Assembly: GCA_029262005.1 (NCBI GenBank)
Contig: JAJDAG010000196.1
Location: forward strand, 1 to 40,580
DNA from: Candidatus Zhuqueibacterota bacterium
GTDB taxonomy: Bacteria; Zhuqueibacterota; Zhuqueibacteria; Oceanimicrobiales; Oceanimicrobiaceae
DNA: 40,580 nucleotides
Direction: 5' to 3'
Part shown: positions 8,391 through 28,579 of the stretch, one piece after another
How the letters are laid out: every line of letters starts with the position of its first letter
How positions within the stretch are numbered: the first letter of the stretch is position 1
Notes under the pieces: model-generated
What the model saw: only the letters and a program-made list of their open reading frames with translations
Database searches by the model: none
What the model was told of the DNA's origin: nothing
Translations under genes and position numbers: made by a program

Positions 8391-8417
8391 AAACCTGAAA
8401 CTTGAATGCACAAAAAA

Positions 8418-9771: not shown

Positions 9772-10149
9772 ATGAATGAAAAACGAAATTCTAAGCGTTA
9801 TGATTTAGAAGATCGAACTTTGGAATTTGCGGGAAAAGTCAGGGCGTTTGTTAAGAAATTCCCCAAAACCATCGCAAATATTAAAGATGTCAGGCAACTC
9901 GTCAAGGCATCTGGCTCGGTGGGAGCGAATTATATTGAAGCGAATGAATCGTTGAGTAAAAAAGATTTCGTTTATCGAGTTAAGGTTTGTAGAAAAGAAG
10001 TCAAAGAAAGCAGATACTGGTTGAGATTGGTTGACAGCTACGATGATTCAGAATTGGAAAGGGAACGAGATTTACTGGTAAATGAAGCCACTGAATTGAT
10101 GAACATCTTTGGCTCTATTATTCGGAAGGTAGAAATAAACTACACTTGA
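9772..10149 (+). CDS. Four-helix-bundle protein (23S rRNA IVS / S23 family)
   Basis: 125 residues, typical length. Family motifs are YDLEDRTLEFAGKVRAFVKKFP at the start, IKDVRQLVKASGSVGANYIEANE in the middle and KDFVYRVKVCRKEVKESRYW, followed by a long amphipathic helix. The fold is a small helical bundle related to proteins encoded in rRNA intervening sequences and to diversity-generating-retroelement Avd proteins; function as a free-standing gene is unknown. It is flanked by the CTCGAAA array upstream and CCCGAAA plus TTCGAATTTC repeats downstream, and interrupts a catabolic operon, which suggests a mobile or horizontally spread cassette. No ribosome binding site is visible before the ATG. 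Confidence 0.88.
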   Translation: MNEKRNSKRYDLEDRTLEFAGKVRAFVKKFPKTIANIKDVRQLVKASGSVGANYIEANESLSKKDFVYRVKVCRKEVKESRYWLRLVDSYDDSELERERDLLVNEATELMNIFGSIIRKVEINYT

Positions 10150-10216
10150 AACCCGAAACCCGAAACCCGAAACCGTTTCGAATTTCGAATTTCGGATTTC
10201 TGATTTGTTTGAAGCT
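10146..10216. repeat. Downstream repeat of the four-helix-bundle cassette
   Basis: Three CCCGAAA heptads follow GAAA and overlap the stop region of the four-helix-bundle gene. A GTTTCGAATTTCGAATTTC segment and TTCGGATTTC then follow. The first block reads in the same sense as the upstream CTCGAAA array and the second is TTCGAA-palindromic, so together they give the cassette related ends. The next gene starts at 10243. Confidence 0.75.
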
Positions 10217-10242
10217 TCGAGTTTTAAGAACTGGACTTGATC

Positions 10243-11658
10243 ATGACAAACATACTTTCTTACGGCATTTCCCTGCCCCATTTTCGGGTTGACAGTAGCA
10301 CTTTGAATCCGTCCCGTGGTCGGAAGCAGGAGCAGAGGGCTGTCATTTTCGTGGATGAGGATCCAATCACTCTGGCGTATGATGCAGCAAACAAGTGCCT
10401 CGCGAATTTTGCAGCGGCGGAATCCGGACACAAAAAGATCGATGCTGTTTTGTTTGCCACAACAACGCCCGTTTTCCAAAACAGGTACCACGCTTCGTTC
10501 CTGGCCGAACTGCTGGATATCCCGAATGGCATACTGGCGCTGGATTTCACCTCATCACTCAGAGCCGGTACGGATGCACTCATTCTTGCAGACCAATTAT
10601 TAACGACTGGGAAATATGAGCGAGTCTTGCTGCTGGCTGCTGACACATATTTCCCAGCCATCGGTGAAGAACTCGCACCCTCGCTCAGAACCGGACACGC
10701 TGGTTGTGCTCTGCTCCTGAGTCGGGAGGATGGTTTCGCATCAATCGCGGCATCCCGCTCATACAGCAGTTTCATTGCAGAGGACTTCGTTTACAAAGGC
10801 AGTGCCGTGCAACCGGATGCCCGATTTGGCCGCGACGCCGGATTCAAGTCGAGCGTCAAGCATGCTCTGAACGACTTCCTTGAACACACTTCGGCTGAAG
10901 CCGCGGATTTCGATGCTGTGATTCTGAATTCAATCTTTGCCCGCAGCGGCGCGGGTCCGTTTTTAAAGAATGGATTCAATGCTGAAAAGCAATTCTTCAG
11001 AGACATTTTAGCGGCGCAGTTTGGATTTTCCGGAGCCTGTCACGCTTTGATGCTGTTGATCCATAGCCTGGAAAGAGAGGCGGAGCGGGTCCTGTTGTTT
11101 GATTGCGGGAACGGTACCAACGTAATTGATATTAAGAGAATTCGTCCGGCTTCTCCAGCATTATCCAGGCAACTCGATAAAGGCGAAACGGTGACCAGCT
11201 ACCAGGATTATTTGCTGCTGCGGCAGGCAGGAAACGTCAACTTAAAATCTGCCACAAAGCAGGACATGTTCTCCTCCGACATGATGCTGGAACGGGAAAA
11301 GAAAAACCTGCTGCAGCTTCAGGGATTTGCCTGTACCGGGTGCGGCACGGTTTATTTTTTGAAAACCATGCGCTGTAAAAACTGTAAGTGTGAAAAATTT
11401 GATGTCCGTAAATTAGAAAAAACCGGTATCGTATTTTCGTTTACCCGGGAACACTATTTCCCCAGCTCATTTGCACCGGTCACCATGGTGGTGGTTGATT
11501 TGGACGGCGGCGGGCGAGTCACTTTACAACTCACCGACGACATGTATGCAAGCGGCACCCGGGAAAATCCGATTGGCGCCAGAGTGCAGCTCGTTCTCCG
11601 AAAAATGATGGAACAGGACAAGAAGCCGAACTATTTTTGGAAATGTAGATTTTATTGA
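10243..11658 (+). CDS. HMG-CoA synthase-like protein fused to a DUF35 Zn-ribbon/OB-fold domain
   Basis: 471 residues. Residues 1 to about 330 have a thiolase/HMG-CoA-synthase fold (DAVLFATTTPVF at 68-79, LDFTSSLRAGTDAL at 100-113). From about 360 a DUF35 module follows, with zinc ribbon C364-x2-C367-x10-C378-x2-C381 and an OB fold. In active HMG-CoA synthases a cysteine lies in the helix before AGT; here S104, S105 and L106 occupy that stretch, so the domain is probably non-catalytic. In archaea, thiolase, HMG-CoA synthase and DUF35 form one complex, and in toluene degradation BbsA (DUF35) pairs with BbsB (thiolase). Fusion here, next to an active thiolase, points to a scaffold for beta-ketoacyl-CoA cleavage. 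The frame also has TTG at 10237; ATG 10243 is preferred. Confidence 0.85.
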   Translation: MTNILSYGISLPHFRVDSSTLNPSRGRKQEQRAVIFVDEDPITLAYDAANKCLANFAAAESGHKKIDAVLFATTTPVFQNRYHASFLAELLDIPNGILALDFTSSLRAGTDALILADQLLTTGKYERVLLLAADTYFPAIGEELAPSLRTGHAGCALLLSREDGFASIAASRSYSSFIAEDFVYKGSAVQPDARFGRDAGFKSSVKHALNDFLEHTSAEAADFDAVILNSIFARSGAGPFLKNGFNAEKQFFRDILAAQFGFSGACHALMLLIHSLEREAERVLLFDCGNGTNVIDIKRIRPASPALSRQLDKGETVTSYQDYLLLRQAGNVNLKSATKQDMFSSDMMLEREKKNLLQLQGFACTGCGTVYFLKTMRCKNCKCEKFDVRKLEKTGIVFSFTREHYFPSSFAPVTMVVVDLDGGGRVTLQLTDDMYASGTRENPIGARVQLVLRKMMEQDKKPNYFWKCRFY

Positions 11659-11770
11659 TGAATTGTTGCGAGGTCTCGCTGCTGAGTTAAAAGAGTGACG
11701 TTTTAATAAGACAGCAATATTATTGCGACAAAACAGGCCATGAGTCAAATAACCAACTTTGTATAAAACG

Positions 11771-12964
11771 ATGAATAAAACTGAGTCCCCAAACATCGCT
11801 ATTATTGGCACCGGTTGTACAAAATTCGGTGAGCTGTTCAGTAAGAGCTACGATGACCTTGTTAGAGATGCAGTTACCGAGGCTCTGGACGATGCTAAGA
11901 TTTCCATTGATTTGGTAGATGCCGCCTGGCTATCCACGGCGTTTCCTGAAATTGGTGTGTTCAAGGGCAGGAGCGGCATGGACTTGGCCGAGCCGTTGTC
12001 CCTCTATGATCTGCCGGTGACGCGGGTCTCTAATTACTGTGCCTCTGGGGCAGATGCCATCCGCAATGGTGTTAACGCGTTGATGGCGCACAATTGTGAT
12101 GTGGTTTTGGCACTGGGGGTTGAAAAGCTCCGCGACCGGCCACCGCAGGACAGTATTGTAAAAATGATGGTTGAATACGGCCACCCATACTACCAAAAAG
12201 GATTTACAGCCGCAGGCACTTTTGCGATTTATGCGAACAGACATTTTAAGGAGTACGGCGTTACCCGCGAGGATCTTGCAGCAGTTTCCGTGAAGAACCA
12301 TTATCACGGCACGCTGAACCCAAAAGCGCATCATCGCCGCGAGTGTACGGTTGACCAGGTGCTATCCTCGCCAATGGTGGCGGACCCGCTGACGGTTTAC
12401 GATAGTTGCCCAACAACGGATGGCGCCAGTTGCGTCATCCTGGTGCGCGCCGAAGATGTGGACCCATCAAAGCATGTTCCGATTTTTGTAAAGGGCATCG
12501 GCTTGTCGGTTTCAACGGGTTGGGACATGCCGTTTTTTGATCCAAACCACGACTTCCTGTCGTTCCGCGCAACTCAGCAGGCCGCAGAAAGGGCCTATAC
12601 ACAAGCAGGTATTGCAGACCCGCTTAACGAAATCGATCTAGCTGAAGTGCACGACTGTTTTTCCATTGTTGAGTTGCTGACTTATGAAGATCTCGGGTTC
12701 TGTAAACCCGGTGAAGCCAAGGAGATGATTCGTGGAAATTCAACTGCCCGGGACGGTGAATTGCCGGTGAACGTTAGCGGCGGACTGCTTTCCTGCGGGC
12801 ATCCAGTGGGCGCCACCGGCGTGCGCATGGTGACGGAAATCGCCACCCACCTCAGAAACAGAGCCGGTGAACGTCAGGTAGAAGGCGCTAAAGTGGGGCT
12901 GGCGCAAAATATCGGCGGGCCAGGTGCCATTGCATCGGTGACGATTTTGAGCAACGAAGTTTGA
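11771..12964 (+). CDS. Thiolase (SCP2/acetyl-CoA acetyltransferase type)
   Basis: 397 residues. The nucleophilic cysteine is C90 in SNYCASGADAIRNG, and the C-terminal NVSGGLLSCGHPVGATG supplies the second Cys and catalytic His. The sequence belongs to the SCP2-thiolase branch that pairs with DUF35 proteins, and the preceding gene provides such a domain. In this locus it would cleave 2-aminobenzoylacetyl-CoA with CoA to anthraniloyl-CoA and acetyl-CoA (inference from the pathway). An upstream TTG (11759) is open, but ATG 11771 is the sensible start. The 112-base gap upstream contains no gene. Confidence 0.88.
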   Translation: MNKTESPNIAIIGTGCTKFGELFSKSYDDLVRDAVTEALDDAKISIDLVDAAWLSTAFPEIGVFKGRSGMDLAEPLSLYDLPVTRVSNYCASGADAIRNGVNALMAHNCDVVLALGVEKLRDRPPQDSIVKMMVEYGHPYYQKGFTAAGTFAIYANRHFKEYGVTREDLAAVSVKNHYHGTLNPKAHHRRECTVDQVLSSPMVADPLTVYDSCPTTDGASCVILVRAEDVDPSKHVPIFVKGIGLSVSTGWDMPFFDPNHDFLSFRATQQAAERAYTQAGIADPLNEIDLAEVHDCFSIVELLTYEDLGFCKPGEAKEMIRGNSTARDGELPVNVSGGLLSCGHPVGATGVRMVTEIATHLRNRAGERQVEGAKVGLAQNIGGPGAIASVTILSNEV

Positions 12965-13027
12965 AACTCGAAAAACGAATTCCGAAACTCGAAGCAAAAG
13001 ATTCGAATTTCAATATTCGGATTTATT
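12962..13027. repeat. Solo CGAAA/TTCGAATTTC footprint without a gene
   Basis: Directly after the thiolase stop the sequence runs TGAAACTCGAAAAACG, CCGAAACTCGAAG, then GATTCGAATTTC and TTCGGATTT. These are the same modules that flank the four-helix-bundle gene (upstream CTCGAAA heptads, downstream TTCGAATTTC and TTCGGATTT), but with nothing between them. It looks like an empty, excised or not-yet-occupied version of that cassette. Confidence 0.65.
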
Positions 13028-13050
13028 AAACAAAAAGCAGATCCTTGATT

Positions 13051-13443
13051 ATGACCAACAAAAAACTAAAAATTCTATTAGGCAAACCCGGCTTGGATGG
13101 ACATGATGTTGGTGTCAAAGTCTTGGGGCATGCCCTGGTTAAGGCTGGTTTCAATATTGTTTACACGGGGCTGCGAAAACAAGTCTCGGACATCGTGCAG
13201 ATGGCTCGGGAGCAAGGTGTGGATGTCATCGGTCTTTCAATTCTATCCGGGACACATCTTGTTATTTGTGAACAGATGCATGCGGCAATGAAAAATGCCA
13301 ACCTGGCCACCCCGTGGATTATTGGCGGAAATATACCCGATGAGGACGTCGTTGCGATTGTGGAAAGAGGGGCCACTGCTGCCTTTCCCACCGGGACCAG
13401 CATTGCAGCCGTGATTGGTTATTTTACCGCCATGAAAAAATGA
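13051..13443 (+). CDS. B12-binding small subunit of an acyl-CoA mutase
   Basis: 130 residues forming a stand-alone cobalamin-binding domain. The signature D16-x-H18-x2-G21 (LDGHDVG) places H18 as lower cobalt ligand; the later GLSILSG and IIGGNIP motifs complete the base-off/His-on site. Free-standing small subunits of this size occur in isobutyryl-CoA, 2-hydroxyisobutyryl-CoA and ethylmalonyl-type mutases. The catalytic large subunit begins 12 bases downstream, so the two form one heteromeric enzyme. ATG 13051 is preferred over TTG 13045. Confidence 0.92.
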   Translation: MTNKKLKILLGKPGLDGHDVGVKVLGHALVKAGFNIVYTGLRKQVSDIVQMAREQGVDVIGLSILSGTHLVICEQMHAAMKNANLATPWIIGGNIPDEDVVAIVERGATAAFPTGTSIAAVIGYFTAMKK

Positions 13444-13455
13444 GAAAAAGGACAC

Positions 13456-15063
13456 ATGAAAAATAACCAGCAGTCATTATCACGCGTCGTTCTTGAGTCC
13501 GGAATTGAAGTGGCGCCACTTTACACGCGGGAGGACATAGAAAAAACCGGTTCCGCAGACGACATCGGCCTACCCGGACAGCAACCCTTTACGCGTGGCA
13601 TTCATGCAGAAATGTACCGCAAGCGACCTTTCACCATGCGGCAGTATGCCGGGTTTGGCACCCCGGCCGAAACCCATGAACGCTTCCAATATTTGATCAA
13701 AAACGGCCAAACCGGTCTGAATGTCGCGTTTGATTTGCCGACTCAAACCGGCCTTGACTCAGATGATCCATGCGCTGCCGGGGAAGTTGGGCGGGTTGGC
13801 ATGTCCGTGGACACCCTGGCTGATTTCGAGGAAGTTTTCAAGGGTATCGACCTCGACAAGATTACGGTTTCTCTTACTATTAACGGTTCAGCGATCGTGC
13901 TGATCGCCATGTATTTTGCCATGGCGGAGAAATACGGCTTCGATATCAAAAACCTTCGCGGCACTGCACAAAATGACATTTTGAAAGAATTCATCGGCCG
14001 CGGAACCTGGGTTTTTCCTGTGGATGCGTCTGTAAAACTCGTTGTTGACACAATCGAGTACTGCGCCAATGAAGTTCCCAAATACAGTCCTGTGAGTGTG
14101 TGCGGCTACCACATTCGTGAGTCCGGGGCCAATCCGGTTCAGGAAATGGCCTATGCATTTTGCATTGCCAAGGCGTACACCGACGAAGCACTGGCACGCG
14201 GACTCGACATTGACGAATTTGCCTCGCGGCTTTCTTTCAACTTCGATATTTATGGTAACTTGTTTGAACAGATCGCCAAGTTTCGTGGTGGCAGACGGCT
14301 CTGGGCAAAAATTATGAAAGAGCATTATCAGGCAAAAAACGAAAAATCAGGCTGGATGCGGATGATCGCCGGTGGCGGTGGCGGCGGTTTGACCAAAGAG
14401 CAGCCGGAAAACAACATTATCAGAAGCGCCTACTATGCTTTGATCAGTGCGCTTTCCGGAACTCAGACCATGGCCCTGTGTTCCTACGACGAAGCTTATA
14501 CCATCCCCACTGAAAAAGCCGCCGAGATTTCGTTACGAACCATGCAGATTCTCACACATGAAATGGGACTTTGCGACACGGTTGATCCGCTTGGCGGCTC
14601 GTATTATGTGGAAACATTGACCAATCAAATGGAAACGGCGATTGCCGAGCAAATGCAGGAAGTAGATGCGAAAGGCGGTATTGTTGCGGCCATTGCTTCA
14701 GGTGAAATCCAGCAGGCGATTTCCGAACAAGCTTACGAGCGTGAGCTGGCCATTCAGGAAGGCAGAACACCAAAGGTGGGAGTGAACTGCTTCCGAAAAG
14801 AAGAAGAGGCAAGAACGGTTGCGTTTCATCCGTATAATGAAGAAAATGCTCGCAAGCAGCTCGTGAACTTGAGTAAAGTGAAAGCGGAACGCAACGCAGC
14901 AGAAGTCTCAAAATGCCTGGAAAAAATTAGAACCGATGCCAGAGCCAACCTCAATCTTATGCCTGCGGTAATAGAGGCTGTCAAAGTCTACGCCACAGTG
15001 GGGGAAATCACTGCTGCTCTAAAAGATGTTTACGGAGAGTATGTGGAGCCGATTTATTTTTGA
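13456..15063 (+). CDS. B12-dependent acyl-CoA mutase, catalytic large subunit
   Basis: 535 residues, a methylmalonyl-CoA-mutase-type TIM barrel without its own B12 domain. Motifs: TMRQYAGFGT (60-69), GLNVAFDLPTQTGLDSDDP, GTAQNDILKEF, SVCGYHIRESGANPVQE and GGRRLWAKIM. Y64 in RQYAGF matches the tyrosine of methylmalonyl-CoA mutase, where isobutyryl-CoA mutase has Phe; this favours a substrate with a free carboxylate. The iaa pathway uses such a mutase to convert 2-aminophenylsuccinyl-CoA to 2-aminobenzylmalonyl-CoA, the substrate expected for the unusual dehydrogenase at 8418 (inference). The ribosome binding site is AAAAAGGA, 7 bases before the ATG. 2-Hydroxyisobutyryl-CoA or ethylmalonyl-CoA mutase cannot be excluded by motif alone. 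Confidence 0.9.
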   Translation: MKNNQQSLSRVVLESGIEVAPLYTREDIEKTGSADDIGLPGQQPFTRGIHAEMYRKRPFTMRQYAGFGTPAETHERFQYLIKNGQTGLNVAFDLPTQTGLDSDDPCAAGEVGRVGMSVDTLADFEEVFKGIDLDKITVSLTINGSAIVLIAMYFAMAEKYGFDIKNLRGTAQNDILKEFIGRGTWVFPVDASVKLVVDTIEYCANEVPKYSPVSVCGYHIRESGANPVQEMAYAFCIAKAYTDEALARGLDIDEFASRLSFNFDIYGNLFEQIAKFRGGRRLWAKIMKEHYQAKNEKSGWMRMIAGGGGGGLTKEQPENNIIRSAYYALISALSGTQTMALCSYDEAYTIPTEKAAEISLRTMQILTHEMGLCDTVDPLGGSYYVETLTNQMETAIAEQMQEVDAKGGIVAAIASGEIQQAISEQAYERELAIQEGRTPKVGVNCFRKEEEARTVAFHPYNEENARKQLVNLSKVKAERNAAEVSKCLEKIRTDARANLNLMPAVIEAVKVYATVGEITAALKDVYGEYVEPIYF

Positions 15064-15121
15064 TTAAGCCAAGTGCCTGGCTGCAGATTGGTGAAAATTT
15101 GTGCCAATAGGAACCAGCAAA

Positions 15122-16339
15122 ATGAAGAAAACAATACTCAGTTTAGAACAAGCCCTGACCCTGCCATATGCTACAGAGCGCTTTGTGCATTTAGGCTGGC
15201 GAGTGATTCGCATTGAGTCTGCGGGCGGTACAGGCAGGAAAGGCGATCCCAACCGCTATATCGGTGAGGATACGGGTGTCGATGATTTGCACGCATATTA
15301 TCTTGCCCCAAACCTGGGCAAAGAGGCGATTACGTTGAACCTGAAAACGGCTGAAGGGCAGGCACTGCTTCGAACCATTATCAAAGAGCTGCATGTGGAT
15401 GTCTTCCTATGTAACACGCTGCCCAAACGCTACAGGCAGCTTGGTATAGATTACGAGACGCTGAGTCAGGCCAATCCGTCTTTGATTTGGTGCGGCATCT
15501 CGGCGCTCGGACCTGAATATCCTGACCGCGCCGGTTATGACCCGGCACTACAGGCTATGTTGGGCTACATGTTTCTCACGGGTGAGCCGGATCGGGATCC
15601 CATGTTGTGCGGCCTGCCTATCATCGATTTGAAGGCAGGTGACGAGGCCTTTACACAGGTTTTGCTCGCATTCCTGGAGCAGGCCAATGCCGGCGCGGAC
15701 ACATCAGGAAAGGAAATACACATTTCTATGGCTCAGTGTGCCGCATCCTGGCTAATTACGGCTCTGCCGCAACGGGTCTTTGCACAGACTGAGGCCGTTG
15801 CCTTCACCCGCAGCGGCAATGAACACCGTAGTTTTGTGCCATCCAACTGTTATCCGACAAAAGATGGTTTCGTCTATCTGGCCATCGGCAGTGATTCACA
15901 GTGGGAAAAATTGACTCAGATGACAGGATTTGAGCATCTCAGAAAGCCCAATCGTCAGACAAATAATGGTCGCCAGGAAGATAAAGAGCGCATTTATGCT
16001 GATATTCGAAAAGGGCTGCAGCAATACACAACCGGGCAGTTCATTGAGATTTGCCTGAGGGAAAATCTGGCGGTTGCGCCGGTTAATTCAACGCGGCAAG
16101 TCTCTGACCTTGAATTTGTAAAAAAAATTATGATAAAGACAGAGCTGCCTTCGAATTCTTCCGGCACCGGTAAAGAAGTTGCGTTGTTTCCTGCGCCGAT
16201 GAATACTGAATTTCTGGCGCAAAACGAACATCGACTTTCTTGCGCGCCGCGGTTGGGACAGCACAACAAATCAATTTTGCAGGAGGCTGGGTTGACTGCT
16301 ACCGAGATAGAGTTGTTGGCAGAGCGTGAAATTATTTGA
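15122..16339 (+). CDS. CaiB/BaiF (class III) CoA-transferase
   Basis: 405 residues, family-typical. The catalytic aspartate is D169 in GLPIIDLKAGDEAF, the same number as in formyl-CoA transferase. The N-terminal CoA-binding region contains WRVIRIES and the LNLKTAEGQALL segment. Class III transferases move CoA between acids and are used in aromatic pathways (BbsEF with benzylsuccinate; IaaL, a phenylsuccinyl-CoA transferase of indoleacetate degradation). After lactam opening, CoA must sit on the carboxylate that the mutase will migrate, and this enzyme is the candidate (inference). It starts 58 bases after the mutase. ATG 15122 with AGGAACC is preferred over an upstream in-frame ATG-less extension to 15101. 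Confidence 0.87.
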   Translation: MKKTILSLEQALTLPYATERFVHLGWRVIRIESAGGTGRKGDPNRYIGEDTGVDDLHAYYLAPNLGKEAITLNLKTAEGQALLRTIIKELHVDVFLCNTLPKRYRQLGIDYETLSQANPSLIWCGISALGPEYPDRAGYDPALQAMLGYMFLTGEPDRDPMLCGLPIIDLKAGDEAFTQVLLAFLEQANAGADTSGKEIHISMAQCAASWLITALPQRVFAQTEAVAFTRSGNEHRSFVPSNCYPTKDGFVYLAIGSDSQWEKLTQMTGFEHLRKPNRQTNNGRQEDKERIYADIRKGLQQYTTGQFIEICLRENLAVAPVNSTRQVSDLEFVKKIMIKTELPSNSSGTGKEVALFPAPMNTEFLAQNEHRLSCAPRLGQHNKSILQEAGLTATEIELLAEREII

Positions 16340-16442: not shown

Positions 16443-19400
16443 ATGCTCAGTAAAATATTGCAAATAGTCACCCCGTATGAAGCGCCCGAAAAAGTCTGCG
16501 TCATGGGTAATGAGGCCGTTGCCAGAGGCGCAATTGAGGCTGGAGTTCGGGGTGTCTTCGCCTATCCGGGCACACCCTCGACGGAAATATCTGAGGCTTT
16601 CAAGCATGTGAGTACGTTTCAAAATGCCCCTGACCGCCGGAAAGAATTCCCCAAGCTGACCGCCGATCCACTGTACTTTGAGTATAGTGTCAATGAAAAG
16701 ATCGCCCTGGAAAAGGCCATCGCCTATGCCATTGGCAACCGCAATGCCCTGTGCTGCATGAAAAATGTGGGGATGAACGTCGCTTCTGATGCACTCATGA
16801 CCATCACCTATCAAACCATCGGTGCCGGCCTGGTAATCATCGTCTGTGATGACCCTGGCTGCTACTCGAGTTCCAATGAACAGGATTCTCGCTACTGGGG
16901 TAAAATGGCCTCTGTTCCATTGTTTTGTCCGGCCACTCCGGAGGAAGCCCGCAGCATGACCAAAGATGCGTTTCGTCTGTCCAGAGAGCTGCTGCTGCCG
17001 GTGATTGTGCGCATGACGACGCGTGTTGGCCATGCGAGAAATATTGTTTACTACGGCCCTATTGATACCGGAATTCAGCCACCAAAATTTGAGAAGCTGC
17101 CGCAACATATCAATATTCCGGCGAGAACGGCCGCGGCCCACAAAAATTTAATCGACAAGCTAAGTGGAAAGGTGGTAACTGAAGCGCTACATCAACATGC
17201 TGTTTCACGTCTACCGGAAAAACAGAATGGCACCAAAAACAAACCGGTTTCTCTTGGAATTATAGCCAGTGGTGTCGCTGCAATTTATGCCCATGAGATT
17301 CTGCAAAGCCCTGAAGTGAGGGACCGGGTTGGACTTCTGAAATTAGGTCTTGTTCACCCCTTTCCCGCTGATGAGGTCAGTAATTTTCTCAGGCAGGATT
17401 TTGAGAGAATTTTGGTTCTCGAAGAGCTGGAACCGTTCATCGAAAACGAGGTTCGGGTGCTTGCACAAAAGCGCGGCCTGCGCATCGATATTTTGGGCAA
17501 AGGCTTTGCCGGGCTGGAAGCAACCGGTGAGTACAATATAGACATTGTCAGTACGGCACTGGCAGCGTTTACCGGGCTGCTGCTGTCGGCTTATAATCGC
17601 AGCGGGTTGCCCTGTGCCGAGAAATACCTGGAATCTCTGCCCAATAGGCCGCCTGCGCTTTGTCCGGGCTGTCCACACCGCTCCACTTTTTATGCTTTGA
17701 AGTTGGCCATACCGCGCCGGGACAGCCAAATCGTGCTTTGCGGTGACATTGGCTGTTTTGGGCTCGGGGCTTTGCCGCCCTTGCAGATGCTCGATACCAT
17801 TCACCACATGGGAATGAGTATTTCTATGGCGCAGGGATTGGCAGAGGCATTCCGGTCGAAACCTCAGGGCGAGAAATTTGTTGCTCTGGTCGGCGATGGC
17901 ACTTTTTTTCATTCCGGTGTCGCTGGTCTGTTAAATGCTGTTTACACGCGCGCCAACGTGCTCGTAATTATTTTCGACAACCGGACAATCGGCATGACCG
18001 GAAGGCAAGATCACCCTGGTGCACCGGGGCAGAGCAAGTACCGCGAAATTAACCTGCCTGCTCTTGTCAAAGGCATGGGCGTGGATTATGTCGAAACCTT
18101 TAACCCGCTTGACTTGCAGGACAGTTTCACCAAACTTAGCAATGCTCTGACGCATGAGGGTGTTGCGGTGGTCGTTGCGCAATCACCGTGTTTACTGATT
18201 CCGGCGGTAAAAGCCAACATTTCGAAAGACAGCATGATTCGGGTTGATCATAGTCTCTGCAACACTTGCCACAACCAGAAAGATCATGAATTGTATTGCG
18301 CCAAAATCACTTTACCCAAAAGTGGTCTTGCCAAAGCGCGGGCCAAACAGGTCGCCGGCGAACACATTCCCGCCAAAGAGCAGGCATGCCCGGCAAATAT
18401 ATGCAACCACGGTTTCTTCAGCGCTATTCTGGCAGGGGATTACAAAGAAGCACTCGATATCGTGCGCGATAAAATGCTGTTTGCCAAAGTGTGTGGCGAC
18501 ATTTGCCACAAACCGTGCGAGTCTCTTTACCGTGAAAATGGTGGCCCAACCGTACCGATCAGACAGTTGAAGCAGTTCGTCTCGGACATTGAAGAAAATT
18601 CTCGCGATTTTACTATTCAGAAAAGGCGAATTTCGAATGTTGAGCCGAAGCAACAGCGCATCGCTGTGGTTGGCGCCGGACCTGCGGGCTTGAGCGCTGC
18701 CTACGATTTGCTGCAACAGGGTTACGCAGTCAAAATATTTGAAAAAGAAGACGAGGCGGGCGGCCTTCTCACTTATGCCATTCCAGATTTTCGTATGGAC
18801 AAAAAAGGTTGTGCAGCCGAAATTGCGCAGCTTAAAGCACTGGGTGTTGAATTTCAATTCAACAGTTGCCTGGGCGAGGATATTGACGTTTCGCAATTGG
18901 CTGAGCAGTTCGACGCGCTAATTATTGCTATTGGCATGGGCGTGTACCCAACTCTCGATGTAATTGAAAACAATGTGGGCGAAACCAGCAAGTTCACAGC
19001 AGTGTCCTTCCTGCGACAATACAATTTGAAATCGCTGGCCGTGAAACCAGCGTCTTCGATATTCGTGATTGGTGGCGGCAACAGTGCTATCGATGCGGCC
19101 CGGACGGCAAAGAGCCTGGATCCCGCCAATGAAGTAATGCTTTCATGTATTGAGACATTGGAAGAAATGCCGGCGTTTGCGGAAGAAATCGCCCACGCCA
19201 AAGCGGAGGGTGTGCAGCTTATTTGCAACAGCAACGTCACTGTCTGCAAGACAGACGCTGATGGCAGGATTTCCATCTCTCTGGATTGTTTCACAGAGAA
19301 AAGCCATTTGCAGGAGCTTCGCTGCGATTATGTGATCACCGCTATTGGTCAGAGAGGCGACGAGACGACCGTGGCCGGTGCCAGACTCAAATTGGACAGC

Positions 19401-19907
19401 AGTAACAGAATCGTCACATCAGCCGCAACCGGACAGACAAATCTCCGAAACGTATTTGTTGCCGGTGACATTTCCGCAGAAAACCATATCAGCCTCATCG
19501 GCGCCATCGCCAGCGGCAAGAAGGCTGCTGTTGGGGTCAGGCAACTGCTCGAAAATTATGATTTCGCCTACGAGGGCCATGTTGCGCTCAACCGGCTGAA
19601 TACTTCTGAGAACAATTTTGCCTCGAAACCACAGAAAAATGGTAAATTCAGCGCGCTGCAAGTGATTGAAGAAATGCCGGCGTTTGAACTTTTTCAAGCT
19701 TGTGAAAAATGCAATCATTGCATCGACAATTTTGGCTGCCCGGCAATGATCAAGGTCAACGGCCAGGTTGAGATCGACGATCAGCTTTGCACGCGATGCG
19801 GTTACTGCATCGATGTCTGCATCAATGATGCGATTCATTGGCGTGAAGTGAGAGCGGATGTTTTACCGTTGCTTCCAGTTGAAGTTTTGAACGGTTCGTC
19901 TGTTTAA
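16443..19907 (+). CDS. iorA: Indolepyruvate oxidoreductase alpha subunit fused to GltD-like NAD(P)H oxidoreductase and ferredoxin
   Basis: 1154 residues in three parts. Residues 1 to about 590 are IorA: YPGTPSTEISEAF near the N-terminus, CPGCPHRSTF near 407, and the TPP site GDGTFFHSG (from 484) with DNRTIGMTGRQDHPG. Residues about 600-1050 resemble the small subunit of glutamate synthase: N-terminal Cys clusters (CNTC, CGDICHKPC), FAD loop GAGPAGLSAAYDLL near 744, and NAD(P) loop GGGNSAIDAA near 877. From about 1085 there is a ferredoxin-like end (CEKCNHC; CTRCGYCIDVC). IorA normally ends in its own ferredoxin domain. The fusion could pass electrons from indolepyruvate oxidation, or from NAD(P)H, to the ferredoxin pool needed by benzoyl-CoA reductase, recalling the 2-oxoglutarate:NADP oxidoreductase of Azoarcus evansii. 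Confidence 0.9.
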   Translation: MLSKILQIVTPYEAPEKVCVMGNEAVARGAIEAGVRGVFAYPGTPSTEISEAFKHVSTFQNAPDRRKEFPKLTADPLYFEYSVNEKIALEKAIAYAIGNRNALCCMKNVGMNVASDALMTITYQTIGAGLVIIVCDDPGCYSSSNEQDSRYWGKMASVPLFCPATPEEARSMTKDAFRLSRELLLPVIVRMTTRVGHARNIVYYGPIDTGIQPPKFEKLPQHINIPARTAAAHKNLIDKLSGKVVTEALHQHAVSRLPEKQNGTKNKPVSLGIIASGVAAIYAHEILQSPEVRDRVGLLKLGLVHPFPADEVSNFLRQDFERILVLEELEPFIENEVRVLAQKRGLRIDILGKGFAGLEATGEYNIDIVSTALAAFTGLLLSAYNRSGLPCAEKYLESLPNRPPALCPGCPHRSTFYALKLAIPRRDSQIVLCGDIGCFGLGALPPLQMLDTIHHMGMSISMAQGLAEAFRSKPQGEKFVALVGDGTFFHSGVAGLLNAVYTRANVLVIIFDNRTIGMTGRQDHPGAPGQSKYREINLPALVKGMGVDYVETFNPLDLQDSFTKLSNALTHEGVAVVVAQSPCLLIPAVKANISKDSMIRVDHSLCNTCHNQKDHELYCAKITLPKSGLAKARAKQVAGEHIPAKEQACPANICNHGFFSAILAGDYKEALDIVRDKMLFAKVCGDICHKPCESLYRENGGPTVPIRQLKQFVSDIEENSRDFTIQKRRISNVEPKQQRIAVVGAGPAGLSAAYDLLQQGYAVKIFEKEDEAGGLLTYAIPDFRMDKKGCAAEIAQLKALGVEFQFNSCLGEDIDVSQLAEQFDALIIAIGMGVYPTLDVIENNVGETSKFTAVSFLRQYNLKSLAVKPASSIFVIGGGNSAIDAARTAKSLDPANEVMLSCIETLEEMPAFAEEIAHAKAEGVQLICNSNVTVCKTDADGRISISLDCFTEKSHLQELRCDYVITAIGQRGDETTVAGARLKLDSSNRIVTSAATGQTNLRNVFVAGDISAENHISLIGAIASGKKAAVGVRQLLENYDFAYEGHVALNRLNTSENNFASKPQKNGKFSALQVIEEMPAFELFQACEKCNHCIDNFGCPAMIKVNGQVEIDDQLCTRCGYCIDVCINDAIHWREVRADVLPLLPVEVLNGSSV

Positions 19908-19987: not shown

Positions 19988-20581
19988 ATGGAAACAAACA
20001 AGTCAAAGAAAATGCTCATAGCCGGCGTCGGCGGTCAGGGTGTGGTGTATTTGACCAATTTGATGGTTGAAGCAGCAATGCTCGCCGATGTTGCTGTGGC
20101 CACAAGTGAGATTCACGGACTGGCACAACGCAGCGGCTCAGTCATCGCAGCCATGACTTTCGGGGGAAATGCATACGGATTTGTTGAAACAGGTGGCGCA
20201 GATTTCCTGCTTGGGCTTGAACCGTTGGAGGCGCAACGTTGTCTGCCTTTCCTCAATCCCCAAAGCCAGGTTGTCATTGATGACAAACGAATATTCCCTT
20301 ATTCCGTCAACGCTGGAACAGCAACTTACCCGGATACCGCAGCCTTTGTTGCATATTTACAGAAGAATATTGCCCGGGTGATTTTCAATCAGGATTTCGC
20401 TGCGGGCCTTGATGCCATCCTGCGCAATGTCCACTTGCTTGGCCGGGCGTCCGGTCTTCCGGGGTTTCCCGTACAGCCTCAGTACATTGAACAGGCACTC
20501 AGCCAATCAACTAAAAGTAGCTATTCCCAACAAAGTCTCCAGGCATTTCAAGCAGGTCAGGCAAATGAAAAAAACAATTAA
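19988..20581 (+). CDS. iorB: Indolepyruvate oxidoreductase beta subunit
   Basis: 197 residues of the IorB/pyruvate-ferredoxin-oxidoreductase gamma family. The N-terminus has the CoA- and TPP-interacting loop IAGVGGQGVVYLTN, then SEIHGLAQRSGSVIAAMTFG and the GADFLLGLEPLEAQR segment, all typical of IorB. It forms the heteromer with IorA that converts indolepyruvate, CoA and oxidised ferredoxin to indoleacetyl-CoA and CO2. The length matches the single-domain form. Its 3' end overlaps the next gene by 17 bases, so it is translationally coupled to the Mo-hydroxylase genes. Confidence 0.92.
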   Translation: METNKSKKMLIAGVGGQGVVYLTNLMVEAAMLADVAVATSEIHGLAQRSGSVIAAMTFGGNAYGFVETGGADFLLGLEPLEAQRCLPFLNPQSQVVIDDKRIFPYSVNAGTATYPDTAAFVAYLQKNIARVIFNQDFAAGLDAILRNVHLLGRASGLPGFPVQPQYIEQALSQSTKSSYSQQSLQAFQAGQANEKNN

Positions 20582-21047
20582 ATTTTCAATTAACGGGACC
20601 AAAGTTCAGCAGGAAGTCCTGCCGGCTTATTTATTGATAGATGTCATTCGCGACGGCCTGGGGTTAAGGGGCACCAAGCCCGGCTGTCTCGAAGGGGAGT
20701 GCGGTGCCTGCACTGTGCTCATCGATGGTCTGGCTGTGAACTCCTGCTTGTATCTCGCGGTCAACGCTGATGGTAAAGAGGTGACCACCATTGAGGGACT
20801 GATATCCGGCCCGGATTTCAGCCTTGATCCGGTGCAGCAGGCAATGGTCGATTTCGGTGCTGTGCAATGCGGATTCTGCACTTCCGGCATGGTCATGTCC
20901 ATCAAGGGCTTCTACGATGAATGTGTTTCGGCTCAGATTCAGCCGAACAGAGAGCAAATCAAGAAAGGCCTGGAGGGCAATCTATGTCGCTGTACGGGTT
21001 ACAAAAAGATAATTGATGCGGTGGAATCTCTGTTTGAGGAAGCATGA
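20565..21047 (+). CDS. Molybdenum hydroxylase, 2Fe-2S small subunit
   Basis: 160 residues with both 2Fe-2S clusters of the xanthine oxidase family. The plant-type cluster is in GCLEGECGACTVLIDG plus NSCLY; the helical-domain cluster is in CGFCTSGM plus NLCRCTGYKKI. It transfers electrons from the Mo centre to FAD. ATG 20565 begins the family homology (MKKTIKFSING) inside the end of iorB. The subunit order small-large-FAD and coupling to iorB put this enzyme in the indole branch. It may be indoleacetate (or indoleacetyl-CoA) C2 hydroxylase; the related 4-hydroxybenzoyl-CoA reductase is the main alternative. Confidence 0.92.
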   Translation: MKKTIKFSINGTKVQQEVLPAYLLIDVIRDGLGLRGTKPGCLEGECGACTVLIDGLAVNSCLYLAVNADGKEVTTIEGLISGPDFSLDPVQQAMVDFGAVQCGFCTSGMVMSIKGFYDECVSAQIQPNREQIKKGLEGNLCRCTGYKKIIDAVESLFEEA

Positions 21048-21147
21048 ATTTGCCTTGACGTTTATGCGCTTTCGTCCAGAATAGTTACAGAAAAGTGCTG
21101 CACATCATGCTGCATTTAACAAGTTAACATGGTTTAAAGATATCCCG

Positions 21148-23436
21148 ATGAAAAGAGACTTGAAAATAATCGGCAAACCGACTCGCAAGCTGGACGCTGA
21201 GGCGCGCGTTAGTGGCGAGGCGGTTTACGGGCACGATATTGTCTTGCCAAACATGCTGCACGGCGCCATTTTGCGAACGAAACATCCGACAGCCGAGATA
21301 CTGTCCATTGACACTTCTAAGGCAAAAGCGCTGCCGGGTGTGGTTTGCGTTCTCACTGCTGACGATGTTGATGTGAATAATATCAGTTATAAAGGCGATC
21401 ATCCCATTCTAAAGAAGGGTGAGGTGAATTGTATTCGGGATGAAATTGCAGCGGTTGCCGCCACTAGCAGAGAAATTGCAGCAAAGGCCCTTGCGTTAAT
21501 TGAGGTTGAATACAAAGTAAGGGAAGGCATCTTTGATCCATTTGCGGCGCTGAAAAAAGAGGCGCCGCAGCTTAACCGCTTCGCCTCAAAGGAGCAGGGT
21601 AAGAATATTGCAGATTCCTTTCACTATGAACACGGCGATTTGCAAGAACAGAAAGAGAAAAGCACTTGCGTTGTGAGTCAGCGCTACACTTTGCCGCGCG
21701 TAACGCATTGCTGCATGGGAACCAGCGCCGTCACGGCAGATTATTCCAGATCAACAAAACGGCTCACTTTATACAGTTTGTCACAGGTGCCATTCCTTTT
21801 TCAAAGAGATCTCGCCAAAGCATTGAGAATGGAACCATCTAATATTCGCATCATCCAGCCTGTGATCGGCGGTGGTTTTGGCAGCAAGCTGGATATGCAC
21901 CCTTTCGAGCCCATCTGCGCTTTGCTGTCGATGCAGACTTGCCGGCCTGTGCAAATTGTTTTTAGTCGGGAGGAGGAGTTTATCGCTTCTCCAACGCGAC
22001 AGCCTATGGTTATCGACTTGACAACAGGCGCGGATGCTGACGGTAAGTTTACCTTTCGTGAGGTGAAAATAACAAAAGATAACGGAGCTTACACTTCCTG
22101 GGGTGCAACCACGCCGTTTGTGATGATGCAGACTTTCTCGTCGCTCTACCAGATCCCTGCTTGTCGTTTCGACTCTTATGCAGTGTACACCAATAATGTT
22201 TTCGCCGGCTCCTTTAGAGGCTACGGCAACCCGCAGGCCACTTTTGCGCTTGAAAGAAATATTGATTTGATGGCCATGGAACTCGGCATGGACAAAATGC
22301 AAATTCGTCTGCTAAATGCCAATTTCGCCGGTGAAGAAACCGGTCAGAAGTTGCACTTCAGAAGCTGCGGCCACAAGGATGCTCTGCAAATTGTCAGCGA
22401 TAAAGCAAACTACAAAAATCGTCAAAAATCTAACGGTACCGGACGATTCAGGCGCGGAATCGGCCTGGCCTCAATGCTGCATGTTGGCGGTGGCGCAAAA
22501 ATCTACCCGTCCGACGGTTGTGGCACAATTGCCAAGTTTGACGACTATGGCTACCTGACCATTATCAGCGGCGCCAGCGAAATCGGCCAGGGCTCGGAAA
22601 CAGTGCTTGCTATGATTGCGGCGGAAGAGCTCGGCGTCAGCATTGAGAAAGTCAGAATCATCAATTCCGACACAGATATCAAGCCGTGGGATGTGGGCGT
22701 GCATGCCTCCAGAACCAGCTTCATTGCTGGAAATTCACTTCTTGGCGCTTTAAGCATACTCAAAATTCAGCTATCAGCTAAAGCGGTTGCGTTGCTTGGC
22801 ACCGATTTGGATGATCTTATATTTGAAGACGACCAAATTCGTTCAGGCCGTACAGGAAAAGCTGTGAAAATCGGCAAGGTTGTGCGAGATATTCACTTCA
22901 AACAACCGCATGAGCTTTGCACGGCAAGCTATTATTATGAGCCGGATAGTGAATATCAGGATGGGGCGTTCAAGGGCAATGTTTCCAGCGCTTATGCCTT
23001 TGCTGCGCAGGCAATCGAAGTTGAGGTTGACACTTACACTGGTAATGTCAGAGTTGTTGATGTGCATGTTGCCCAGGACGTTGGCAAAATTCTCAATCCA
23101 CTGGGCCTGGCCGGTCAGATTGAGGGCGGCGTTGTCATGGGGCTTGGTTACGCATTAACTGAGGAGTTGATTGCCTCCGAGGGACATGTGCGCAACCCCA
23201 ATTTTCATAATTATAAACTGCCAACAGCAAGCGATATTCCTGAGATTCATTTTCATCCAATTGAGACAAGTGATCAGGAGGGGCCGTATGGCGCAAAAGG
23301 TGTCAGCGAGGCACCGCTTATTCCTACGGCTGCGGCAGTTGCTAACGCTGTCTCTGATGCACTGGGGGTGGAAATCTTTTCGCTGCCGGTAACGCCTGAA
23401 AAAATCTTGCAAGCATTGAAAGAGAAAAGTGTATGA
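21148..23436 (+). CDS. Molybdenum hydroxylase, large Mo-cofactor subunit
   Basis: 762 residues, xanthine dehydrogenase family catalytic chain. It shows the opening KPTRKLDAEARVSGEAVYGHD, the Mo-pterin loop GGGFGSKLDMHPFEP, AGSFRGYGNPQATFALE, a second pterin-binding region ASEIGQGSETVL and the C-terminal EGPYGAKGVSEAPLIP, whose Glu is the active-site base near Mo. These enzymes hydroxylate N-heterocycles with water; in the iaa pathway the first oxidation of the indole ring at C2 is ascribed to such an enzyme. A 100-base gap precedes it without a gene. Its end overlaps the FAD subunit start by 4 bases (ATGA). Confidence 0.9.
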   Translation: MKRDLKIIGKPTRKLDAEARVSGEAVYGHDIVLPNMLHGAILRTKHPTAEILSIDTSKAKALPGVVCVLTADDVDVNNISYKGDHPILKKGEVNCIRDEIAAVAATSREIAAKALALIEVEYKVREGIFDPFAALKKEAPQLNRFASKEQGKNIADSFHYEHGDLQEQKEKSTCVVSQRYTLPRVTHCCMGTSAVTADYSRSTKRLTLYSLSQVPFLFQRDLAKALRMEPSNIRIIQPVIGGGFGSKLDMHPFEPICALLSMQTCRPVQIVFSREEEFIASPTRQPMVIDLTTGADADGKFTFREVKITKDNGAYTSWGATTPFVMMQTFSSLYQIPACRFDSYAVYTNNVFAGSFRGYGNPQATFALERNIDLMAMELGMDKMQIRLLNANFAGEETGQKLHFRSCGHKDALQIVSDKANYKNRQKSNGTGRFRRGIGLASMLHVGGGAKIYPSDGCGTIAKFDDYGYLTIISGASEIGQGSETVLAMIAAEELGVSIEKVRIINSDTDIKPWDVGVHASRTSFIAGNSLLGALSILKIQLSAKAVALLGTDLDDLIFEDDQIRSGRTGKAVKIGKVVRDIHFKQPHELCTASYYYEPDSEYQDGAFKGNVSSAYAFAAQAIEVEVDTYTGNVRVVDVHVAQDVGKILNPLGLAGQIEGGVVMGLGYALTEELIASEGHVRNPNFHNYKLPTASDIPEIHFHPIETSDQEGPYGAKGVSEAPLIPTAAAVANAVSDALGVEIFSLPVTPEKILQALKEKSV

Positions 23437-24308
23437 ATTTTGAAATGATAACACCGCGCACAACCGGTGAATTGTTGCAGGCCCTGGCAAATAATCAGGG
23501 CAGCAGGGTCAGAATCGGGGCAGGGTACACCGATCTCATTCTGGAACTCAAAGGCCTGAAGTGTGAAGAGACGCCGTTGGTGATTAATCTTGCGGATCTG
23601 ACCGACCCGAAGTTTACTCATATTGAGAAAACAGACGCCGGCATCAGGTTAGGTGCACTGGTGACAGCCGGCAAAGTCATCATTGATGCAAGCATTCAAA
23701 CAGAATTGCCCGTTCTGTGTAAAGCAGCGAGCGAATTGGGATCTCGGCAACTCAGGCACAGGGCAACCCTTGGCGGCAATTTATGCACTGCCTCTCCAGC
23801 CGGCGACATTGCTGCGGCCCTGGTGGCGCTTGAAGCAAGGTGTGAAATTTTATCGGCCGACGGAACACTTAGAACTCTGGCCTTGACAGATTTTCTCGTC
23901 GGGGTACGTAAAACCGCCTTGCGGCAGGATGAAGTTTTGCAAAGCGTTTTTATTCCAACCAGAAAATCAATCAATAAACATTTATTGTCGGACTTTCTAA
24001 AAGTAGGAACACGACGGTCCATGGAAATAGCCGTGGTATCATTGGCCTATCAGTTTGAACTGGATGCAGAAGAAATAATCAGGCATGCAGGCATAGCAAT
24101 TGGCTCAGTTGCACCGACAGTAAAGTTCGTAAGCGCGGCCGGCGAATTTCTTGTCGGCAAGAAGTTCTCATCCATCGGAGCAGTTGCAGCAGATAAATTT
24201 GCAGCCATGGTTTGCGCGGAAGCGACCCCCATTTCCGACATCAGGGCATCGGCGTGGTATCGCAGGGAAGTCCTTTATAATATTAGCAGGGGTATTTTTG
24301 ACAAATGA
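23433..24308 (+). CDS. Molybdenum hydroxylase, FAD subunit
   Basis: 291 residues of the CoxM/XdhB family. FAD motifs are RVRIGAGYTDLIL and RHRATLGGNLCTASPAGDIAAAL. It has only five scattered cysteines and no Cys-rich insertion, whereas the beta subunit of 4-hydroxybenzoyl-CoA reductase carries an extra 4Fe-4S loop. This favours an ordinary oxidising hydroxylase over a dehydroxylating reductase. Its stop overlaps the start of the aminotransferase by 4 bases, so Mo enzyme and aminotransferase are translated together. Confidence 0.9.
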   Translation: MNFEMITPRTTGELLQALANNQGSRVRIGAGYTDLILELKGLKCEETPLVINLADLTDPKFTHIEKTDAGIRLGALVTAGKVIIDASIQTELPVLCKAASELGSRQLRHRATLGGNLCTASPAGDIAAALVALEARCEILSADGTLRTLALTDFLVGVRKTALRQDEVLQSVFIPTRKSINKHLLSDFLKVGTRRSMEIAVVSLAYQFELDAEEIIRHAGIAIGSVAPTVKFVSAAGEFLVGKKFSSIGAVAADKFAAMVCAEATPISDIRASAWYRREVLYNISRGIFDK

Positions 24309-25333
24309 TCACCGAAACTGAAAAAATCGCCGGAATTATCAAACTCTCACAGAACGAAAATCCGTTTGGCGCTTCTCCCGCGGCTTTGAAAGCAATTTCT
24401 GATAATTTTCACTCAATTTATCGTTATCCCGAATTTACGCACCTGGCGCTCAGAGAAAAGCTCGGCCATAAGTTTAGCACACCTGCCGATAATATTGCTA
24501 TTTCAGCGGGTTCAGTCGAGATGATAGAGCTAATCATTAAGACGTTTGTTGGTCGTGCAGAAAATATTGTTACCTGTGCAACAACATTTGTAGCCTATAA
24601 ATTACTGGCAAAAGTAAATAGACGAGAATGCCGGCTCTCCAGATTAGACAATGAGCAGATAGACCTGATTGACATGGCCGCGGTGTGTGATGATTTAACA
24701 AGAGTGGTATTTCTCGCCAACCCGAACAATCCTACCGGCGCCATGGTTTCGCATGATGGACTGCGGAACCTGCTGCAATCGCTTTCACCGGAAATACTGG
24801 TGGTCAGCGACGAGGCATACGCTGAATATGTGACTGACTCTGACTATCCCGATTCACTGAAATTGCAAAAAGAGCACCCCAACCTGATAATTCTGCGGAC
24901 CTTTTCCAAGATTTATGGTCTGGCTGGTTTACGCATCGGCTACGCAATCGCTCAGCCGAAAATAATTCAGGCTTTGCGCGAAAGCCGTACACCGTTTTCT
25001 GTAAATCGACTGGCGGCGCTGGCAGCATCCGCTGCGTTGGATGACATTGATTTTACCACAAGATGCACTGAACTTAATAGCCAGCAACGTGACATCCTGT
25101 ATCAGGAAATTACTGATCTCGGCTTGAAGACCGTCCCTTCGCACGGCAACTTCCTTTTCGTGCGTTTCGCATCTGTGGTAGAGAAATTTAAAACTCTCTA
25201 TTCGTTGAAAGAGAGCGGAATTCTCGCGCGGGATATGGAGCCTTTTGGTGCGAAAACCTGTTTGCGGATCAGTGTCGGGCGCCCTGAAGAGAATCGTCGT
25301 TTAGTTGAATGCATCCGTCTTAGTAACAAATAA
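24305..25333 (+). CDS. HisC-type class I/II aminotransferase, probable aromatic aminotransferase
   Basis: 342 residues, PLP fold type I close to histidinol-phosphate aminotransferase. Motifs: LSQNENPFGASPAAL at the N-terminus, VFLANPNNPTGAMV, SDEAYAEY, the PLP lysine in RTFSKIYGLAGLRIGYA and CLRISVGRPEEN near the end. HisC-like enzymes frequently act on aromatic amino acids. No his gene is nearby, and the gene is coupled by ATGA to a Mo hydroxylase in a run that includes indolepyruvate oxidoreductase, so tryptophan to indolepyruvate is the likely reaction (inference). A role in histidine synthesis is the alternative. Confidence 0.85.
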   Translation: MITETEKIAGIIKLSQNENPFGASPAALKAISDNFHSIYRYPEFTHLALREKLGHKFSTPADNIAISAGSVEMIELIIKTFVGRAENIVTCATTFVAYKLLAKVNRRECRLSRLDNEQIDLIDMAAVCDDLTRVVFLANPNNPTGAMVSHDGLRNLLQSLSPEILVVSDEAYAEYVTDSDYPDSLKLQKEHPNLIILRTFSKIYGLAGLRIGYAIAQPKIIQALRESRTPFSVNRLAALAASAALDDIDFTTRCTELNSQQRDILYQEITDLGLKTVPSHGNFLFVRFASVVEKFKTLYSLKESGILARDMEPFGAKTCLRISVGRPEENRRLVECIRLSNK

Positions 25334-25477: not shown

Positions 25478-26563
25478 ATGCCGAATATTCAAGCCTGGCA
25501 AATGCTTGAAGTTGCCAAGCCAATGCAATTGGCCCAAATTGCCCAACCCGCCTTGTCGGCCAATGAAGTTCTAATTCGAGTTGTTGGCTGTGGTGTCTGT
25601 CACACGGACCTTGGTTTCCTTTATGACGGCGTGCGAACCGTTAAAACATTGCCACTGACGCTTGGGCATGAAATCAGCGGTATTGTCGAGGCTGCCGGTG
25701 ATGATTCACAAAATTGGCTTGGCAAGGCGGTTATTGTCCCGGCAGTAATGCCGTGTGGTGAGTGTGAACTTTGTCGCAAAGGTCGCGGAACCATCTGCCG
25801 CAAGCAAAGCATGCCTGGTAATCATATCGATGGCGGTTTTGCCAGTCATATTGTTGTTCAGGATCGATACCTCTGCCATGTTGATATTGATTCTCCTGGG
25901 AAACAGTTTGGCGACTCAGGAGTGAGTCTAACTGAACTTTCGGTTATTGCAGATGCTGTGACCACGCCTTATCAAGCGATAAAAAATGCCGGTCTCAGCG
26001 CTGGAGATGTGGCTATTTTTATTGGTGTTGGCGGCATTGGTGGCTTTGGTGTGCAAATAGCTAAGGCGCTTGGAGCGACGGTTATTGCCATCGATATAGA
26101 TGAACGCAAATTAACCACACTGCGCAAATTTGGTGCGGATGTCACGTTCAACGCTACTGAATTCGACCCGAAAAGCATGCGCAAGGCTGTGCGCGAGTAC
26201 GTGGCTGCAAACTCCCTTTCTCCATTTGAGTGGAAAATTTTTGAAACATCCGGCACAAAGCCTGGTCAGGAAACCGCTTTTGCTCTCCTGACATTCGGCG
26301 CCACACTTAGCGTGGTTGGTTTTACAATGCAGACGTTGGAGCTACGCCTCAGCAATCTCATGGCGTTTGATGCAAAAGCCATCGGCAATTGGGGATGCCT
26401 TCCACAATACTATCCTGATGTATTGGAATTGGTCAGGACCGGAAAAGTTCAACTCGGCCCGTTTGTGCAAACCTTTCCGCTAAGCGAAATTAACGCTGTT
26501 TTTGAGCGCGTTCATAACAAAGAAATCGAAAAAAGACCTATTCTTGTTCCCGACTTTGATTAG
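25478..26563 (+). CDS. had: 6-hydroxycyclohex-1-ene-1-carbonyl-CoA dehydrogenase
   Basis: 361 residues, zinc-dependent medium-chain alcohol dehydrogenase. Catalytic zinc ligands include C41 in GVCHTDLGFLYDG and H64 in GHEISGIVEAAG; the structural zinc site is C93, C96, C99 and C107. The NAD loop is GVGGIGGFGVQIAKALG. Length and sequence match Had of Thauera and BzdX of Azoarcus, which oxidise the hydroxy group formed by Dch. It is the first gene of the benzoyl-CoA branch and is followed after 10 bases by oah, the enzyme for the next reaction. Confidence 0.9.
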   Translation: MPNIQAWQMLEVAKPMQLAQIAQPALSANEVLIRVVGCGVCHTDLGFLYDGVRTVKTLPLTLGHEISGIVEAAGDDSQNWLGKAVIVPAVMPCGECELCRKGRGTICRKQSMPGNHIDGGFASHIVVQDRYLCHVDIDSPGKQFGDSGVSLTELSVIADAVTTPYQAIKNAGLSAGDVAIFIGVGGIGGFGVQIAKALGATVIAIDIDERKLTTLRKFGADVTFNATEFDPKSMRKAVREYVAANSLSPFEWKIFETSGTKPGQETAFALLTFGATLSVVGFTMQTLELRLSNLMAFDAKAIGNWGCLPQYYPDVLELVRTGKVQLGPFVQTFPLSEINAVFERVHNKEIEKRPILVPDFD

Positions 26564-26573
26564 GAGACAGTCA

Positions 26574-27665: not shown

Positions 27666-27690
27666 CTGAATTGAAGTACGGCCAAACACG

Positions 27691-28134: not shown

Positions 28135-28175
28135 AAACAATCAATTGTTTTCACAGTAATTTTAGGAGTTTGGTC

Positions 28176-28499: not shown

Positions 28500-28579
28500 G
28501 CTTGCGCTGAAAAAAAGAGGGTTGAAAAATTCTCCTGCCGGAATGACTGCTGAAATAAAACTCAAATGCTGGAAAGATT

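Follow-up and report, generated by a model that had tools for sequence, protein, structure and literature searches.

Within the window, by which we mean the whole 40,580-nucleotide stretch of DNA analysed here, one gene encodes a thiamine-dependent 2-oxoacid oxidoreductase (IorA) combined with FAD and NAD(P) modules, and this raises the question of which oxoacid such an enzyme would oxidize and where its electrons would go. The initial annotation had proposed two roles, namely coupling of 2-oxoacid oxidation to NAD(P)+ reduction, or donation of electrons through a fused ferredoxin to ATP-dependent benzoyl-CoA reductase. The former is the better supported of the two, as described below, while the case for the latter is weak.

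A flavoprotein module lies inside the IorA chain

The fused gene and its parts are as follows.
16443-19907, + strand: IorA-flavoprotein fusion ORF, 1154 aa, no internal stop
16443-18242, + strand: thiamine diphosphate-binding IorA catalytic core, residues 1-600 (TIGR03336 at 17-622; Pfam TPP_enzyme_C at 435-578)
18258-18299, + strand: junction cysteine group Cys606, Cys609 and Cys619 (cysteine conservation map)
18372-18599, + strand: Fer4_20-type Fe-S domain of the inserted NfnL/GltD module (Pfam Fer4_20, PF14691, at 644-719)
18657-19484, + strand: FAD/NAD(P)-binding reductase fold of the inserted module (Pfam Pyr_redox_2, PF07992, at 739-1014; fold matches)
19146-19154, + strand: residues 902-904, C-I-E, at the YRR position of NfnL/GltD-type NADPH sites
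19692-19835, + strand: terminal 2[4Fe-4S] domain with eight cysteines at 1087-1126 (Pfam Fer4 at 1109-1131; closer to the IorA ferredoxin domain)

The uninterrupted reading frame, the family scans, the predicted model and the homologues all bear out that thiamine, FAD/NAD(P) and Fe-S groups are carried on a single chain, as initially annotated. In the family profile scan TIGR03336 (IorA) matched with 582 bits against a cut-off of 650.9, and we therefore class the protein as an IorA-related variant and not as an IorA equivalog, its substrate specificity not being assured by this match. Residues 633-1132 matched the profile of an NAD(P)-binding protein that ends in a ferredoxin domain (NF009410/PRK12771), with 272 bits against a cut-off of 516. 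The AlphaFold2 model of the fusion was confident (mean pLDDT 84.9, pTM 0.71), its flavin half gave NfnL, the glutamate synthase small subunit and DPD as fold matches, and both the FAD and the NAD(P) Rossmann motifs, GAGPAG and GGGNSA, were found in the chain.

The terminal Fe-S domain had been taken for an extra, fused ferredoxin. We rejected this origin as an added module, since the terminal domains of all 15 fused proteins scored higher against the IorA ferredoxin domain than against that of GltD-type proteins. For the window protein the best pairwise scores were 135 and 81, respectively, and the HMM scores 52 and 27 bits. The assignment uses these scores alone, because the GCPA count of 62 out of 62 is circular, the domains having been picked by GCPA. 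An IorA-like terminal domain implies that the flavoprotein sits within IorA, ahead of its native electron wire. On these scores IorA is interrupted by the NfnL/GltD-type FAD/NAD(P) module, which separates its catalytic core from its own C-terminal 2[4Fe-4S] domain.

Homologues of the fused chain

The full-length chain was searched for in one genome per bacterial and archaeal species, and homologues at 49-58% identity were found in four independent assemblies.
L047: Bacteroidetes MAG, full-length fusion
L048 and L050: Saprospiraceae MAGs, full-length fusions
L049: Krumholzibacteriia-labelled MAG, full-length fusion

More distant full-length fusions (about 30-37% identity) occurred in Chloroflexota, Planctomycetota, Acidobacteriota and Myxococcota-labelled MAGs, and one small phylum contributed several genomes that carry them. 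The window protein and those of L047-L050 group into a five-member clade that both trees, IorA and GltD, support at 100%, and L056 stands apart from it in both, on a long branch. The fusion may have arisen once or several times: a single origin was not rejected by the IorA tree (AU p 0.235), and the GltD tree requires at least two changes in fusion state, a count which took the broken copy of G150 as unfused. In the G150 assembly that gene (L046:7866-11184) is broken, and the residue at the break is undetermined. In L069 (Acetothermia, 9887-14028) three genes encode an IorA lacking the Fe-S tail, a flavoprotein with an IorA-like Fe-S tail and IorB, which is either a split form of the enzyme or a frameshifted fusion.

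Cysteines 649, 654, 684, 688 and 692 belong to the Fer4_20-type domain. Cys684 is present in all five fusions of the window clade, which we also call the iaa clade, as against one of ten other fusions, and cysteines at columns 645 and 696 of the other fusions are absent from this clade. The junction group Cys606/609/619 is kept in 5/5 and in 8-10 of the 10, respectively, and derives from either the start of the IorA ferredoxin domain or the N-terminus of GltD.

The fusion stands in an anaerobic indoleacetate (iaa) gene cluster

The genes around the fusion, all on the same strand, are listed below.
3431-7751, + strand: hydantoinase/caprolactamase-type A and B subunits (IaaCE-like lactamase; family match)
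8406-9548, + strand: acyl-CoA dehydrogenase with GGG motif (IaaF-like; TLIGGGTSEIL)
10237-12964, + strand: HMG-CoA-synthase-like protein with BbsA-like tail, plus thiolase (last thiolytic step)
13045-15063, + strand: B12 mutase small and large subunits (IaaGH-like)
15101-16339, + strand: class III CoA-transferase (IaaL-like), directly upstream of the fusion
19988-20581, + strand: iorB, beta subunit partner (TIGR03334, 134 bits, below the cut-off of 206)
20565-24308, + strand: xanthine-dehydrogenase-type hydroxylase gamma, alpha and beta subunits (proposed indoleacetyl-CoA ring hydroxylase; same order in L048-L050)
24305-25333, + strand: HisC-type aminotransferase (proposed to convert tryptophan to indolepyruvate; TIGR01141, 320 bits, above cut-off)
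25478-29353, + strand: benzoyl-CoA-pathway genes Had, Oah and Dch, interspersed with two small ORFs (above cut-off for TIGR03201 and TIGR03200, below it for TIGR03189)
29418-33688, + strand: ATP-dependent benzoyl-CoA-reductase-type subunits C, B, A and D (best matches Bcr-type)

From 2026 to 35502 the window is one same-strand run, made up of a tryptophan/indoleacetate-type degradation set and a benzoyl-CoA reduction set. A TrpB-like gene (2026-3393) stands at one end of it and a gene of the tryptophanase/tyrosine-phenol-lyase type (34132-35502) at the other, and these two could channel indole in or out. The HMG-CoA-synthase-like protein and its BbsA-like C-terminal part form one chain (10237-11658), and a small ORF with a weak ATC_hydrolase match (7902-8390) lies just before the iaaF-like gene. 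A promoter and terminator scan gave hits at chance level only.

By gene content and order, this locus is an anaerobic indoleacetate (iaa) cluster. All IaaF proteins carry GGG where most acyl-CoA dehydrogenases have YEG (PMC8360864), and we found GGG in the acyl-CoA dehydrogenases of the window, L048, L049, L050 and L056, as against YEG in the more distant ones of the control loci L044, L045 and L147. The IaaCE-type genes (IaaCE is described in PMC8453981 and PMC5214803), like the IaaGH- and IaaL-type genes, were assigned by family and gene order and not by comparison with Aromatoleum sequences. The order CoA-transferase, fusion, IorB, hydroxylase is kept in L048-L050, with HisC also in L049 and L050, and this conserved order spans Bacteroidota and Krumholzibacteriota-labelled MAGs. 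In L047 the fusion directly follows the CoA-transferase and the locus ends at the fusion; the CoA-transferases of L047-L050 are 57-71% identical to that of the window and hold the same position. Almost all fusion loci that extend past the fusion have an IorB match next to it.

The AMP-binding signature of a CoA ligase was absent from the window and from the iaa fusion loci, while it fired in seven other loci. Lacking the IaaB ligase signature, the window holds an iaa-like cluster with another entry and not the Aromatoleum iaa operon, and such absence is what would be expected if IorAB supplied the thioester.

Loss of the YRR motif in iaa-located fusions

In NfnL and DPD structures the YRR motif holds the 2'-phosphate of NADPH. 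The motif, which is also present in solved NfnL-type chains, was kept in 9/9 other fusions and replaced by C-x-E in 6/6 iaa-located ones, five of these six being the related proteins of the window clade. The form is C-[IVL]-E in that clade and C-P-E in L056, where, given its long branch, the change could be drift. With an acidic residue where the arginines would stand, NAD+ should be preferred over NADP+, and C-x-E in the iaa-located fusions thus predicts NADH as their product.

Proposed function of the fused enzyme

From the observed chain, its architecture with the inserted module, its place among iaa genes and the missing YRR motif we infer the substrate, the direction of electron flow and the specificity for NAD, and we think it reasonably probable that the fusion serves as alpha subunit in an oxidoreductase for indolepyruvate (arylpyruvate) which, with an NfnL/GltD-type flavoprotein inserted, makes indoleacetyl-CoA and NADH together with IorB. 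It is the iaa context that narrows the substrate to an arylpyruvate, most likely indolepyruvate. The HisC-type aminotransferase would convert tryptophan to indole-3-pyruvate, and the fused IorA with IorB would oxidatively decarboxylate it to indoleacetyl-CoA, replacing the CoA ligase. Thiamine would hand its electrons to the Fe-S clusters, these to FAD and FAD to NAD+, so that NADH would be formed and not free reduced ferredoxin. Indoleacetyl-CoA would then undergo ring hydroxylation, ring opening, rearrangement and cleavage to 2-aminobenzoyl-CoA, which benzoyl-CoA reductase would dearomatise.

Individual parts of this scheme have precedent: an OFOR is reported to convert indolepyruvate to indoleacetyl-CoA (PMC13290082), IorAB acts in arylpyruvate catabolism (PMC5109826), and the iaa pathway is entered at the activated compound indoleacetyl-CoA (PMC8360864). 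Entry of tryptophan into the iaa route through IorAB was not found in the literature searched, in which the described entry is a CoA ligase, nor did the open-licence literature searched contain an IorA with an inserted NfnL-type module linked to the iaa route. The locus offers a case, open to test, of an oxoacid oxidoreductase that would have been switched from ferredoxin to NAD+ by insertion of a flavoprotein into its electron path, with a residue change (YRR to C-x-E) that tracks pathway context, and it suggests a ligase-free tryptophan route into the anaerobic indoleacetate pathway, joined here to ring reduction in one gene run.

Alternative readings

In the ferredoxin-donor role, the terminal Fe-S domain would pass low-potential electrons from indolepyruvate, and perhaps from NAD(P)H, to free ferredoxin and so feed benzoyl-CoA reductase. 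The bcr genes indeed lie downstream on the same strand, and 2-oxoacid oxidoreductases and Nfn-type enzymes have been implicated as donors to this reductase elsewhere (PMC9973337). The lack of a separate ferredoxin gene, from which the fused one had been made a candidate donor, holds for the window but not for the genome, which encodes separate ferredoxins as well as an oxidoreductase of KorA/KorB type accompanied by a ferredoxin gene. Moreover, the terminal domain is the ordinary IorA wire, and ferredoxin reduction driven by NAD(P)H alone is uphill. It had also been suggested that the same domain order be sought beside bcr/bzd genes; in L047-L050 and L056, however, the fusion lies within the iaa cluster and the bcr genes are on other contigs, so that the fusion tracks the iaa cluster, the bcr link is particular to the window, and a tie of the fusion to bcr was rejected. 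Fusions L051-L054 and L043-L045 have no iaa or bcr genes nearby, an outcome of the kind that the initial annotation had itself named as refuting. Taken together, we hold this role to be unlikely.

The KorA- and KorB-like genes in question follow a ferredoxin gene at L005 (G000 C42), and they are a possible ordinary electron source for the reductase in this genome. The iaa cluster of L047 contains, at 1737-4601, an ORF for a KorD-like ferredoxin together with two further ORFs (368 and 259 aa) that may encode a second 2-oxoacid oxidoreductase. All four reductase subunits of the window fall well short of the Bcr and Bzd equivalog cut-offs, the A-like one being only 270 aa, and they may represent a distinct subgroup, perhaps for 2-aminobenzoyl-CoA.

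A general fermentative enzyme for arylpyruvate or branched-chain oxoacids, with NAD(P) output and placed in the iaa cluster by chance, would fit the related fusions of Chloroflexota, Planctomycetota and the phylum of G116, which adjoin unrelated genes. Against this reading, which we consider improbable, the gene order of the window clade is maintained across four other genomes, and the clade has residue changes of its own.

We see only a slight chance that in iaa clusters the fused enzyme divides indolepyruvate electrons between NAD+ and ferredoxin, thereby both running the pathway and powering benzoyl-CoA reductase, possibly by flavin-based bifurcation. Bifurcation as such, with the NfnL-like FAD splitting electrons between NAD+ and ferredoxin, is suggested by the closest solved folds, which are subunits of the bifurcating Nfn and Stn complexes. 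It is nevertheless very improbable: no NfnS-type partner was present among the annotated window genes, the potential of 2-oxoacid oxidation is low enough to make bifurcation unnecessary, and the fold also occurs in GltD and DPD, which do not bifurcate.

An assembly or binning artefact, for which it may be said that the window is a draft-genome contig and that the fusion was present in no other of the 82 genomes of its phylum, is scarcely conceivable, since the same single chain in four independent assemblies excludes an assembly join, the tetranucleotide signature of the contig agrees with its genome and one gene on it has 69% homologues in the same family. The break near 18240 that had been feared is not there, the chain recurring in full length in other assemblies, and a foreign origin of the contig is not supported.

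Comparison with known systems

There is precedent both for 2-oxoacid oxidoreductases linked to NAD(P) and for fusions of an OFOR with a flavoprotein. With IorAB (TIGR03336/TIGR03334) the fusion has in common the thiamine core, the C-terminal 2[4Fe-4S] domain and the IorB partner, but it carries an FAD/NAD(P) module before the Fe-S domain and scores below the IorA cut-off. With NfnL, GltD and PRK12771-type proteins it shares Fer4_20, the FAD and NAD(P) Rossmann folds and the overall fold, whereas here the module is part of an IorA chain, and in the iaa clade it lacks YRR and has gained one cysteine and lost others.

The 2-oxoglutarate:NADP+ oxidoreductase of Azoarcus evansii and phenylglyoxylate:NAD+ oxidoreductase are NAD(P)-linked enzymes of anaerobic aromatic metabolism with a separate flavoprotein subunit. 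The latter is named, with its genes PadEFGHI, in PMC5109826. Unlike the fusion, both have separate subunits and act on other oxoacids, and the comparison made here is one of described properties. Pyruvate:NADP+ oxidoreductase of the Euglena type is a PFOR-flavoprotein fusion with NADP+ output, but its flavoprotein is unrelated, belongs with another OFOR family and is appended, while that of the window is inserted. Finally, the Aromatoleum iaa cluster shares with the window the IaaCE-, IaaF-, IaaGH- and IaaL-like genes and the GGG motif; the window differs in having, instead of a CoA ligase, an aminotransferase, the IorA fusion and IorB, with the bcr genes joined on.
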